NCBI RefSeq assembly: GCF_005885635.1
Contig: NZ_VATY01000003.1
Location: 186,001-250,000, forward strand
Length of the DNA: 64,000 bases
Direction: 5' to 3'
Origin: Maribacter algarum (ex Zhang et al. 2020)
Lineage (GTDB): Bacteria > Bacteroidota > Bacteroidia > Flavobacteriales > Flavobacteriaceae
Below are positions 13,965 to 17,298 of the stretch, one piece after another. Position 1 is the first letter of the stretch, and each line of letters starts with the position of its first letter. The position numbers and the translations under genes are program-made. The notes beneath the pieces are model-generated. The model saw only the letters and a list, made by a program, of their open reading frames with translations, had not been told where the DNA came from and did not search any database.

Positions 13965-14823
13965 GGAGACTCATATCGCAAAACCACAAGAGAAACCCAT
14001 ACGCTTACAAGAATACGGCATTGGCCTCTTCTCCACTATATCCACAAAATCCGCTTTAAAAAAAGCCTTAAAGAAAAAATTGATTTTTGTGGATGGAAAA
14101 TTGGGCGAGACTTCAACTTACATCCGTGGGAATGAAATTATTACGTTTCATCCATCCGAAGAAAAACCTAATAAAAAACAATTCATACTTAAACTAGAAA
14201 TAGTTTATGAGGATGAATATATTGCTATTATTCGCAAACCTGCCGGAATTTTGGTAAGTGGAAACTCCTTTAAAACCATAGCCAATGCTCTAGTACAAAA
14301 TCTTCAAGAAAGTGGTCAATCGGATGCCATAAAACCACAACCAGCGCATCGATTGGATTATGCAACAACCGGTCTTTTACTCATCGGAAAAACAAGTACT
14401 TCTCTAATAGCATTAAATAAATTATTTGAGCAGAAGCAAGTGCTGAAAACCTATTTTGCCGTTACCATAGGAAAAATGATAAAGAAAGGAACGATTACTT
14501 TTTCTGTGGACGGAAAGGAAGCCATTTCAAACTTTGAGGTGATTGAGACCATCGTATCGGAAAGGTTTCAGTATTTGAATTTGGTTAAGCTATCTCCTGA
14601 AACGGGAAGAAGACACCAACTAAGAAAACATTTGTCCGAATTAGGAAGCCCCATTTTAGGAGATGAAACATATACTAAGAAAGATCTCCTTTTAAAGGGA
14701 AAAGGATTATACCTACATGCTTTTTCCTTGAAGTTTTTACATCCCTTTACTAATGAAAAAATGTATTTTGAAAAAGAACTTCCCTTGAAATTCGGAAAAC
14801 TTTTAAAAAAAAGCAGGTCATAA
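13951..14823 (+). CDS. RluA-family pseudouridine synthase
   Basis: 290 residues from the ATG at 13951, which overlaps the end of the amidohydrolase gene by 14 bp; a GTG at 13933 is an alternative start. An S4-like N-terminal part (SALKKALKKKLIFVDGK) is followed by the catalytic domain: VYEDEYIAIIRKPAGILVSG, then the catalytic-Asp motif HRLDYATTGLLLIGK at about 136-150, and SPETGRRHQLRKHLSELG, GDETY near the end. It isomerises uridines in rRNA or tRNA; the exact site cannot be read from sequence. The last 12 bp overlap the 3' end of the RNase P RNA gene on the other strand. Confidence 0.9.
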   Translation: MVKSKETHIAKPQEKPIRLQEYGIGLFSTISTKSALKKALKKKLIFVDGKLGETSTYIRGNEIITFHPSEEKPNKKQFILKLEIVYEDEYIAIIRKPAGILVSGNSFKTIANALVQNLQESGQSDAIKPQPAHRLDYATTGLLLIGKTSTSLIALNKLFEQKQVLKTYFAVTIGKMIKKGTITFSVDGKEAISNFEVIETIVSERFQYLNLVKLSPETGRRHQLRKHLSELGSPILGDETYTKKDLLLKGKGLYLHAFSLKFLHPFTNEKMYFEKELPLKFGKLLKKSRS

Positions 14824-15119
14824 GCCGGATTCTGTTCCTCATTGCTGAGTTCCTTATCATTTATCTAGACTTTCGGTTACCCAAAAGCTCTAACCGCCTA
14901 CCCTTCGGCTCGGGCGTGCAGCCCTCAAACACCGGTTTACATGACGTTTCACCGCATAGAGTTTACCTGATTTCACTACAGCCGAACTGTACTTGCTTTC
15001 TGTTGCACTTGTCCGCATCTCTCGACGGATGGGTGTTACCCACTATGCTGCACTATGGTGTCCGGACTTTCCTCCTTGTACTGAAACTAAATCAGCACAC
15101 GACGATAAGGTGACCTGCT
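14812..15119 (-). ncRNA. rnpB: RNase P RNA (bacterial type A)
   Basis: The catalytic RNA of ribonuclease P, which removes 5' leaders from pre-tRNA. Read on the minus strand it contains the universal GAGGAAAGTCCGGAC core near its 5' end, an ACAGAAAGCAAGTACAG segment, and ACAGAATCCGGCTTAT near its 3' end. Helix P1 is a perfect 9-bp pair between 15111-15119 and 14812-14820. The 3' side of P1 is followed by eight T residues (minus strand), giving a combined P1/terminator whose DNA lies inside the last codons of the RluA-type gene. Length about 308 nt. A -7 box sits just upstream. Confidence 0.94.
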
Positions 15120-15123
15120 GATG

Positions 15124-15249: not shown

Positions 15250-17298
15250 TTGGAACCCTTCATAGTATCAGCAAGAAAGTATAGACCGCAAACATTTAAA
15301 GATGTTGTGGGCCAACAAGCGATTACCAATACGCTGCTGAATGCTATAGAAAATAACCATTTGGCCCAGGCGCTTTTGTTTTGTGGTCCACGTGGTGTTG
15401 GCAAAACAACTTGCGCACGTATTCTAGCCAAACAAATCAATCAAGATGGTACGCAAAGTGAAGATGAAGATTTTGCTTTTAACATTTTCGAGTTGGATGC
15501 TGCGTCTAACAATTCCGTAGATGATATTCGGAATCTGATTGACCAAGTCCGTATTCCGCCGCAGACAGGTAAATACAAAGTATATATCATTGATGAGGTA
15601 CATATGTTGTCCTCAAACGCCTTCAATGCATTCTTAAAAACTTTGGAAGAGCCACCCAAACATGCCATATTCATCTTGGCCACTACGGAAAAACATAAAA
15701 TAATACCCACCATACTTTCGCGTTGTCAAATATTTGACTTTAAACGAATTACGGTAAAAGACGCTGCAAACTACTTAAAGTACATAGCAAAGAATCAAGG
15801 TATTGAAGCGGAGGATGATGCGCTTCATATCATCGCTCAAAAAGCAGATGGAGCCATGAGGGATGCGCTCTCCATTTTTGATAGAGTTGTCAGTTTTTCT
15901 GGAAAACAACTTACTAGAAAAGCGGTTACCGAAAACCTAAATGTTCTTGATTACGAAACTTATTTTGAAGCGACGGACCGTATTCTTGAGCATAACATTC
16001 CGGAATTACTTCTTTTATTCAATAAAACTTTGTCCTTAGGATTTGACGGACACCATTTCATTAGTGGCTTAGCAACTCATTTTAGAGATTTAATGGTATG
16101 TCAACATCAAAGCACCATTAATTTGCTTGAAGTCGGCGACGGAGCGAAACAAAATTATCTAGAACAATCTCAAAAGACTTCCAATTCCTTTTTGCTAAAA
16201 GCGTTAAACATAGCCAATGACTGTGATTTAAAATATAAGACTAGTAAGAACCAACGTCTTCTAGTGGAACTGTCTTTAATGAAATTGGCATCCATCGATT
16301 TTGATGGAGAAAAAAAAAACCCTGAATCAGTAGCGCTTTTAGATAGTACCGTTGACTTTATTGCTCCTGCTTCTTTTTATAAAGGAATAACTCGCACCAA
16401 GTCAACAGCAGTGGAAACTAAGGAGGAAGTTTCTTCTGAAACTACAACAAATGCCCCTAAACAGGTTAAGGAAATCATTATAGAAGAAAGTCCTGAGGAA
16501 GTTAGAACTACCTCTACTATCTCTGAAGAATCCATTTCGCAAACCGCGATTACTCCTGAAGCAACTCAAAGGATTCCCTCAGAGGCCAAAGCTACACCTA
16601 CCGAACCAGCAACTTTGGAAGTTATGCAGGAAGTGACTCAAACCATTCCAACGGAAGTTGCGTCTGCACCTATTGCACCAATATCTGAAATGAGTGCAGT
16701 TGAAACTGTTCAAGATGTACCTTCTGAAATGCCAAGATCAATTACGGAACCAGAAGTTGCCCTCTCCGAATCGGTTGAAACTGTTGTAGAAGAGAAAGTT
16801 ACCGAAGCTCCTAAAATCAATATTAGTCTCGCAGAAAAAAGAGTTTCCGCACTTTCAATATCCAGTCTGAAGGCTAAAAAAGTTCACGAGCAGAGTCGTA
16901 AAGACCATACGATTGATGAAAGCAAACTTCCCAAAGAAGTTTTTGCTGAGGAAGCTTTACAAGGCCATTGGGCAGATTTTGTTCAAAAATTGGATGAATC
17001 GGGTAAAAAAATTCTAGCATCAAATTTAAATGCCGATGTTCCTAAGTTAAGAAACGAAACGACTATCTGGATTGAGCTACCAAACGATACCATGAAAAAG
17101 GAAATTGAACGGGAGCAGTATGATTTGATGGAGTATCTTAAAGGGAAGTTGAATAACTATTTTATCACTTTACAAATAACCGTAAACGAAGCCACGGCTA
17201 AAAAATTTGCTTTTACTCCCGAAGAGAAATATCAAAAGTTGCGGGAAAAGAATCCAACAATAGATTTGTTGCGAAAAGAATTCGATTTAGACCTTTGA
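15250..17298 (+). CDS. dnaX: DNA polymerase III subunit gamma/tau
   Basis: 682 residues starting with TTG; the following SARKYRPQTFKDVVGQ is the normal N-terminus, so the TTG is likely real. DnaX is the ATPase of the clamp loader. Walker A GPRGVGKTT is at about 45-53, ELDAASNNSVDDIR and IIDEVHMLS (Walker B) follow, then the SRC sensor motif in LSRCQIFDF. The four-cysteine zinc module usually found after Walker A is absent here. Domain III ends near residue 352. An acidic Pro/Thr/Glu-rich linker (about 385-540) leads to a C-terminal domain (about 560-682) that would bind the polymerase. A run of ten A at codons 354-357 sits at the core/tau boundary. The 3' end overlaps the convergent membrane-protein gene by 12 bp. 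Confidence 0.96.
   Translation: MEPFIVSARKYRPQTFKDVVGQQAITNTLLNAIENNHLAQALLFCGPRGVGKTTCARILAKQINQDGTQSEDEDFAFNIFELDAASNNSVDDIRNLIDQVRIPPQTGKYKVYIIDEVHMLSSNAFNAFLKTLEEPPKHAIFILATTEKHKIIPTILSRCQIFDFKRITVKDAANYLKYIAKNQGIEAEDDALHIIAQKADGAMRDALSIFDRVVSFSGKQLTRKAVTENLNVLDYETYFEATDRILEHNIPELLLLFNKTLSLGFDGHHFISGLATHFRDLMVCQHQSTINLLEVGDGAKQNYLEQSQKTSNSFLLKALNIANDCDLKYKTSKNQRLLVELSLMKLASIDFDGEKKNPESVALLDSTVDFIAPASFYKGITRTKSTAVETKEEVSSETTTNAPKQVKEIIIEESPEEVRTTSTISEESISQTAITPEATQRIPSEAKATPTEPATLEVMQEVTQTIPTEVASAPIAPISEMSAVETVQDVPSEMPRSITEPEVALSESVETVVEEKVTEAPKINISLAEKRVSALSISSLKAKKVHEQSRKDHTIDESKLPKEVFAEEALQGHWADFVQKLDESGKKILASNLNADVPKLRNETTIWIELPNDTMKKEIEREQYDLMEYLKGKLNNYFITLQITVNEATAKKFAFTPEEKYQKLREKNPTIDLLRKEFDLDL
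16310..16319 (+). promoter_or_regulatory. A10 run, candidate slippage/frameshift site in dnaX
   Basis: Ten consecutive A in the codons GAA AAA AAA AAC. With one extra A (or a -1 ribosomal shift) the next codons are CCC TGA. With one A fewer they are ACC CTG AAT CAG TAG. Either shift therefore ends the protein at about 358-361 residues, immediately after domain III, giving a gamma-like product. Confidence 0.6.

Follow-up and report, generated by a model that had tools for sequence, protein, structure and literature searches.

The dnaX Locus and Its A-Run

The window examined here is a stretch of 64,000 nucleotides from the flavobacterium Maribacter algarum (contig NZ_VATY01000003.1), and all coordinates given below count from its first letter. 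It contains dnaX, the gene for the gamma/tau subunits of DNA polymerase III, together with a group of smaller features located around and beyond the middle of the gene (the basis of each assignment is given in brackets):

15250..17298, + strand: dnaX, DNA polymerase III gamma/tau, 682-aa tau form, TTG start (ORF and profile matches)
16291..16308, + strand: stem-loop, arms 16291-16297 and 16302-16308, loop 16298-16301 (folding, codon choice)
16306..16914, + strand: linker joining domain III to the C-terminal domain, residues 353-555, low confidence (AlphaFold pLDDT <50)
16310..16319, + strand: A10 run, codons 354-357, GAA AAA AAA AAC (sequence reading)
16323..16325, + strand: TGA in the -1 frame, closing a 358-aa product after one added A (sequence reading)
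16331..16333, + strand: TAG in the +1 frame, closing a 360-aa product after one missing A (sequence reading)
16948..17283, + strand: tau C-terminal domain, residues 567-678, missing from the short form (AlphaFold model and conserved columns of a 10-sequence alignment)

The dnaX product matches NF011531 with 719.3 bits (cut-off 685) and TIGR02397, the N-terminal DnaX family, with 387.9 bits (cut-off 250). The latter match covers residues 6-346, and the A10 run lies beyond it, after the clamp-loader part of the protein. Pfam domain III is found on residues 222-348 with a score slightly below its cut-off (23.2 and 24.4 bits, respectively). In the AlphaFold model of tau a helix ends at residue 347 and pLDDT is below 50 over residues 353-555; this model has a mean pLDDT of 53, is mostly poor over residues 1-166 as well, and was used for the linker boundary only.

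The zero frame around the run reads GAT GGA GAA AAA AAA AAC CCT GAA TCA GTA and continues to the end of tau. Addition of one A gives GAA AAA AAA AAA CCC TGA, in which the stop is one codon past the run and the product has 358 aa, and loss of one A gives GAA AAA AAA ACC CTG AAT CAG TAG, in which the stop is four codons on and the product has 360 aa. The predicted short forms, of ~40 kDa, would thus differ at their C-termini, EKKKP with one added A and EKKTLNQ with one missing. The gene is of the single-ORF type, that is, the 682-aa tau form is encoded in the zero frame; it does not belong to the two-ORF type, in which gamma occupies the zero frame. A first-pass annotation of the locus had placed an A10 run with stops in both other frames at codons 354-357, where the clamp loader ends, and had proposed products of 358-361 residues; direct reading confirms the former statement, and the sizes held to within one residue.

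Directly upstream of dnaX and divergent from it is a class A RNase P RNA (RF00010, 196.5 bits) at 14806-15121 of the reverse strand. A 65-aa ORF at 14916-15113 overlaps this RNA and is probably spurious.

Distribution of the A-Run in Bacteroidota

The query was mapped onto 306 dnaX loci, 297 of which are non-identical around the site. At least nine A occur at the site in 273 of these 297 Bacteroidota loci; three of the remainder are cut by contig ends and 21 have no such run. By taxonomic distance from the window, the run is present in 13/13 loci of the same genus, 136/137 elsewhere in the family Flavobacteriaceae (the miss is cut by a contig end), 65/71 elsewhere in the order (one miss is cut and five lack the run), 38/43 elsewhere in the class (one cut, four lacking it) and 21/33 elsewhere in the phylum (all twelve misses lack it, ten of them having not even five A in a row). 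All 149 non-identical, uncut Flavobacteriaceae sites have the run, in agreement with the expectation of the first-pass annotation that it would be kept rather than broken by AAG lysine codons. Its length varies from A9 to A12 among relatives and is exactly A10 in 134 of the 142 genes of genus and family that remain when nine family loci selected for short frames are set aside. The codon phase of the run is not fixed (all three occur), and neither is its position (residues about 350 to 373 in most genes) or the codon at its start (GAA, CAA, GTA, TCA, AAA, and others).

Some points define the scope of these figures. Related genes were counted separately, so that the percentages overstate independence. 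The run finder reaches up to 80 codons beyond domain III, and a few distant runs (e.g., L260, L286) are perhaps unrelated to the site. Some of the A9, A11, or A12 runs are possibly sequencing errors. From one same-genus genome (57% complete) a full dnaX was not obtained.

The A-run at this site has not been kept by chance, and the flavobacterial site is one part of a phylum-wide feature. On the basis of sequence comparison alone, this presumed dual-product site is conserved and looks functional; from its spread we infer that it is probably old in the phylum.

The ten phylum loci without an A-run of five or more (L278, L280, L282-L285, L288, L289, L291, L292) sit in sequence that is G+C-rich by eye. 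Three loci of one family, f15, come from very small genomes (~300-600 kb), and their dnaX is either short or diverged. The frame of L265 is closed after 345 codons, L267 carries A8, and in L268 an A11 is followed by a +1 frame of 130 codons. In these three the site seems to have been lost or to have decayed.

Exchange of Frame Between tau and the Short Form

The longest frame downstream of the run is the zero frame in 197 of the 273 genes. The remaining 76 genes encode the short form in the zero frame, which closes shortly past the run, and have tau in the -1 frame (68 cases) or the +1 frame (eight cases, L268 included; this locus is within the counts of 273 and 76 and was left out of the tree and the stem counts). 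In the seven +1-frame genes that remain without L268 the tau frame is open for 209-256 codons. The interchange of the product encoded in the genome is thus directly visible in the DNA, and a FastTree phylogeny of 272 genes requires a minimum of 35 switches of the tau frame; this estimate is rough, as it rests on one gene and a fast method. The two layouts also occur side by side within a genus. In Flagellimonas, a two-ORF gene (L089) and a single-ORF gene (L092) share the same A10 followed by G; what sets them apart is a one-base indel immediately downstream, besides a substitution. Among laboratory flavobacteria, the single-ORF form is represented by Zobellia uliginosa and Maribacter (loci L069-L071) and the two-ORF form by Cellulophaga baltica (L076). 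A listing of the family with nearly one genome per genus includes at least 11 loci with frames of 361-377 codons, the others having 564 or more (150 rows, counted by eye).

Sequencing error is an unlikely general cause of the two-ORF genes, as 55 of the 76 shifted genes have exactly A10, and remains possible for single cases with A9, A11, or A12. One gene was counted as single-ORF despite an early stop: L138 (Gillisia marina) has A10 in the usual place and a zero-frame stop 59 codons past the run, which reflects either a sequencing error or a broken tau.

Some groups appear uniform in their layout. Genus g111 is two-ORF in all ten loci fetched (L151, L153-L159, L161, L162), and in family f4 all 19 rows examined have the two-ORF layout as judged by open-frame length (361-374 codons; named loci are L178, L179, L227, L229, L231, L232, L235-L237, and L240-L247).

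Stops in the Unused Frames

Both unused frames stop within six codons of the site in 84.2% of the 273 genes, compared with 14.5% of 49,044 linker positions in the same genes. For the 123 single-ORF genes of genus and family, a -1 stop occurs within two codons in 98.4% (null 23.3%) and a +1 stop within six codons in 92.7% (null 36.3%); in seven family genes the farther stop is at 11-15 codons. Codon choice contributes to this arrangement. A motif [IVL][IVL][PA] follows the site in 69 of the 123 genes, and of the 64 that have Ile as the first residue, 63 use ATA, which creates a +1 TAA; upstream in the same genes ATA accounts for 812 of 3,524 Ile codons (23%). Both stops are therefore maintained, partly through biased synonymous codons, and the suggestion of the first-pass annotation that relatives would keep early stops held for both unused frames beyond the null. 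Retention of the +1 stop points to a requirement of slippage in two directions and not to one of a -1 ribosomal shift.

A Hairpin Upstream of the Run

The first-pass annotation had missed a potential hairpin directly upstream of the run. In the window this stem (TCCATCG-ATTT-TGATGGA) closes one base 5' of the A10, with a folding energy of -7.9 kcal/mol and a z-score of -2.03; 9 of 200 shuffles fold equally well. In a random 60 of the 149 genus and family genes, the 60 nt upstream of the run have a mean z of -1.69 vs. -0.21 and -0.29 at controls, and the downstream window of the same genes has -0.34 vs. -0.29 and -0.21. Outside the family the upstream value is -0.56 (controls -0.42 and 0.07; 60 of 124 other genes). 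No 3' stem stimulator rose above control, either in the 60 sampled genes of genus and family or in 59 others, pseudoknots being outside this test.

Stems lying no more than two bases from the run, at -4 kcal/mol or better, are present in 11/13 genus and 106/136 family genes, vs. 1-2% at control positions of the same genes, and in 13/64 genes of the order, 5/38 of the class and 0/21 of the phylum. No upstream stem at -4 kcal/mol was found in the family f4 loci that were read. The possibility that the stem is a by-product of the peptide was ruled out by synonymous redraws, in which the protein is fixed and codons are drawn from each gene's own usage: stems of -6 kcal/mol or better occur in 78% of the 149 genes and in 3.3% of the redraws. 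The codons concerned can be identified in 99 genes that encode the motif AS[IV]x[FY]DG, where those used are the ones that pair: Ala is GCC in 79/99 (32% elsewhere), Ser is TCC or TCT in 98/99 (40%), Ile is ATC in 96/97 (20%), Asp is GAT in 96/99 (73%), and Gly is GGA in 92/99 (27%). The hairpin is thus kept through codon choice in most Flavobacteriaceae dnaX genes.

The case for the stem rests on this codon choice and not on covariation. At fixed columns covariation is weak, its score being reached by 48 of 500 shuffles and the number of further pair types by 10 of 500 (the number of paired cells was reached by 0 of 500), partly because the stem of some genes has a different sequence or is shifted in register (L039, L041, L056, L087, L204). 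In L087 (2548-2581) a seven-codon insertion before the run brings a new stem (CCTGCCT...GGGCAGG) that is flush with the A10. A terminator scan listed none at the site. The hairpin potential and its conservation are shown; a role as a stimulator of slippage is likely and is an inference.

A Shine-Dalgarno-like tetramer occurs within 15 nt 5' of the run in 9/13 genus and 106/136 family genes, compared with about 10% at control sites; in the window it is GGAG at 16306-16309, abutting the run. Because it mostly co-occurs with the stem, their effects are difficult to tell apart (among genus and family genes, the stem stands alone in nine and the tetramer in seven). As a reason for the conserved codons, the tetramer could explain GGA and could not explain the 5' arm. 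The tRNAs read include one tRNA-Lys, with anticodon UUU as in E. coli; the set comprises 38 matches, two of which were not read and two of which had no ARAGORN call.

A10 Runs Elsewhere in the Genome

By count alone the single A10 in the window is unremarkable, since 100 dinucleotide shuffles give a mean of 5.0 with a standard deviation of 3.0. The whole genome (5.11 Mb, both strands) contains nine A10 sites, vs. about 400 expected by extrapolation from the shuffle rate of the window. A10 seems to be strongly avoided in this genome with dnaX as an exception, as judged from shuffles of one 64-kb window. Runs of this type are also scarce within dnaX itself: outside the site, the 273 genes have just 12 runs of nine or more A in 481,858 nt.

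Five of the eight A10 runs that were given loci, dnaX among them, sit in open frames of at least 100 codons. Two of the non-dnaX runs borne by ORFs are together kept in 0/9 homologues: the run of L008 in 0/4 close homologues of the genus (a more distant one, L345, also lacks it) and that of L003 in 0/5. L008 is a sharp control because the same Glu-Lys-Lys-Asn is encoded there. L001, another ORF with A10, had no relative at E 1e-20 in 13 other genomes. An adjacent stem was absent at all seven other A10 sites read in the genome.

Relation to Known Systems

The dnaX gene of Thermus thermophilus makes its two products by transcriptional slippage on nine A (PMC5009743, PMC1088944). Larsen et al. 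(2000) is reported to be the original paper on this system, which is characterized by mRNAs of mixed run length and by roughly equal amounts of tau and gamma. As in the window, tau is encoded in one ORF with an A-run and close stops in both other frames, and the short product, like the one predicted here, lacks the C-terminal part. The differences are that the run is A10 and not A9, that the phylum is another one, that a stem is adjacent on the 5' side in the family, and that some relatives template the short form.

Two-ORF genes are also on record. In 2013, 17 two-ORF dnaX genes from 12 genera were reported, 12 of them with poly-A, and transcriptional slippage was proposed (PMC3711429); nine of the poly-A genes have ten A, that of Chloroherpeton nine, and those of two Chlorobium eight and seven (Chlorobi). 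In this GeneTack cluster recoding yields tau, the same layout as in the two-ORF relatives described above and unlike the single-ORF gene of the window. Slippage at poly-A dnaX genes outside Thermus had thus already been proposed, and the kind of system is known; the claim of the first-pass annotation that a flavobacterial site would be a third occurrence of this solution failed. Neither the interchange of layouts nor the stem appears in the bearing sections of PMC3711429, the supplement not being covered. Likewise, no description of slippage at Flavobacteriaceae dnaX, of layout exchange, or of a stem at the Bacteroidota dnaX site was found in the literature searched, which did not include supplements and most subscription papers.

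A precedent for the stem is provided by Roseiflexus IS630, in which slippage is promoted by an RNA stem next to the motif on its 5' side (reference 99 of PMC5009743). Both cases have an inverted repeat directly 5' of the motif, proposed to form a nascent-RNA stem at the exit channel. The Roseiflexus motif differs in being U5C5, in undergoing one-base deletion only and in showing no detectable slippage without its context, whereas homopolymers as long as that of dnaX are reported to slip without help. E. coli arrives at the outcome proposed here, in the same gene, by -1 ribosomal frameshifting, also with a stop one codon past the shift (PMC5009743, PMC3711429). It uses A_AAA_AAG with a Shine-Dalgarno-like sequence on the 5' side and a stem-loop on the 3' side; the window, in contrast, has A_AAA_AAC, no 3' stem over control, a 5' stem, and an additional +1 stop.

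Mechanism and Alternative Explanations

The reading we favor, with a probability of about 0.8, is that transcriptional slippage is the main mechanism at the dnaX A10 and makes tau and a gamma-like form. The RNA:DNA hybrid would realign while the run is copied, giving dnaX mRNAs with A9, A10, A11, and so on. Messages with A10 (or A10 plus or minus 3) would encode the 682-aa tau, and other run lengths would lead to TGA or TAG within five codons and to a gamma-like product of 358 or 360 residues, larger insertions making this form a few residues longer. The short form would retain the clamp-loader part and lack the linker and the C-terminal domain. In Flavobacteriaceae, a nascent-RNA hairpin directly 5' of the run probably increases the rate of slippage. 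Polymerase slippage fits because the run has about nine A or more, stops are present in both frames, no codon phase is needed, and tau may lie in any frame. The comparison supports the slippage and gamma-like reading already offered by the first-pass annotation; that slippage occurs, its rate, and the making of both proteins are inferred without RNA or protein data.

A first alternative is that the short form arises solely by programmed -1 ribosomal frameshifting of the E. coli dnaX kind, with slipping at A_AAA_AAC or A_AAA_AAA within the run and termination at the TGA. This is supported by the -1 stop being nearest and best kept, by the placement of tau in the -1 frame in 68 of 75 shifted genes (L268 excluded), by a G after the run in 50 of these 68, by the E. 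coli-type A_AAA_AAG of many two-ORF genes, by the Shine-Dalgarno-like tetramer 5' of the run in most family genes, and by the one tRNA-Lys (UUU) seen. However, a -1 shift has no need of the +1 stop that codon choice keeps, and it is unable to produce tau in the seven +1-frame genes. The run ends mostly in AAT or AAC (AAG in 18 of 119 single-ORF A10 family genes), and no 3' stem over control was detected in the 60 of 149 genus and family genes. Moreover, -1 shifting is weakened by a hairpin placed just upstream of the shift site (PMC6321510), and in F. johnsoniae initiation is reported to involve Shine-Dalgarno sequences only rarely and frameshifting at prfB to be inefficient (PMC12421855). Ribosomal shifting on its own is thus unlikely and is not excluded. 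A combination of both layers, which overlaps with the favored reading, is possible: polymerase slippage would act throughout, with ribosomal shifting in addition, either a -1 shift where the run ends in AAG or a +1 shift aided by the upstream hairpin. A G follows the run in those 50 of 68 -1-frame genes vs. 50 of 197 same-frame genes, and upstream hairpins can stimulate +1 shifting (PMC6321510); this G, however, may merely be the first base of the next tau codon.

Two other explanations were considered. Conservation might reflect a neutral lysine patch, that is, a useful Lys-Lys peptide in an A-rich composition, and AAA does encode most lysines (2,645 of 3,727 in the part of the family genes upstream of the site). 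This can be all but dismissed: the run persists across differing codon phases and peptides, tau would not survive the changes of frame, runs of A9 or longer are rare in the rest of the genes, and both stops and stem are maintained by synonymous choice. Alternatively, the run might be a contingency locus that mutates at replication, so that the population switches between forms. The range from A9 to A12 among relatives speaks for this, but the DNA itself holds A10 in 134 of 142 family genes and replication slippage needs no RNA stem beside the run, which leaves this explanation with very little support.

Significance of the dnaX Site

Automatic annotation may label functional dnaX genes of this type as truncated or frameshifted. 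Pairs of close relatives in which either tau or gamma is templated are available ready-made, and the stem plus A-run is a candidate slippage stimulator in a cellular gene.

A bolder reading joins two statements, that dnaX of Bacteroidota has been freed from a fixed frame and that a hairpin programs slippage in Flavobacteriaceae; for the two together we judge the balance of evidence to be slightly favorable. If this is true, one polymerase-slippage site would serve all three frames, the templated product having switched from tau to gamma or back dozens of times without loss, and a terminator-like hairpin followed by an A-run would, in an essential replication gene, edit transcription instead of stopping it. 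The importance of the short clamp-loader subunit is disputed (PMC5009743). That a means of making it has been kept through at least 35 changes of frame is evidence, obtained without any experiment, that both forms are under selection.
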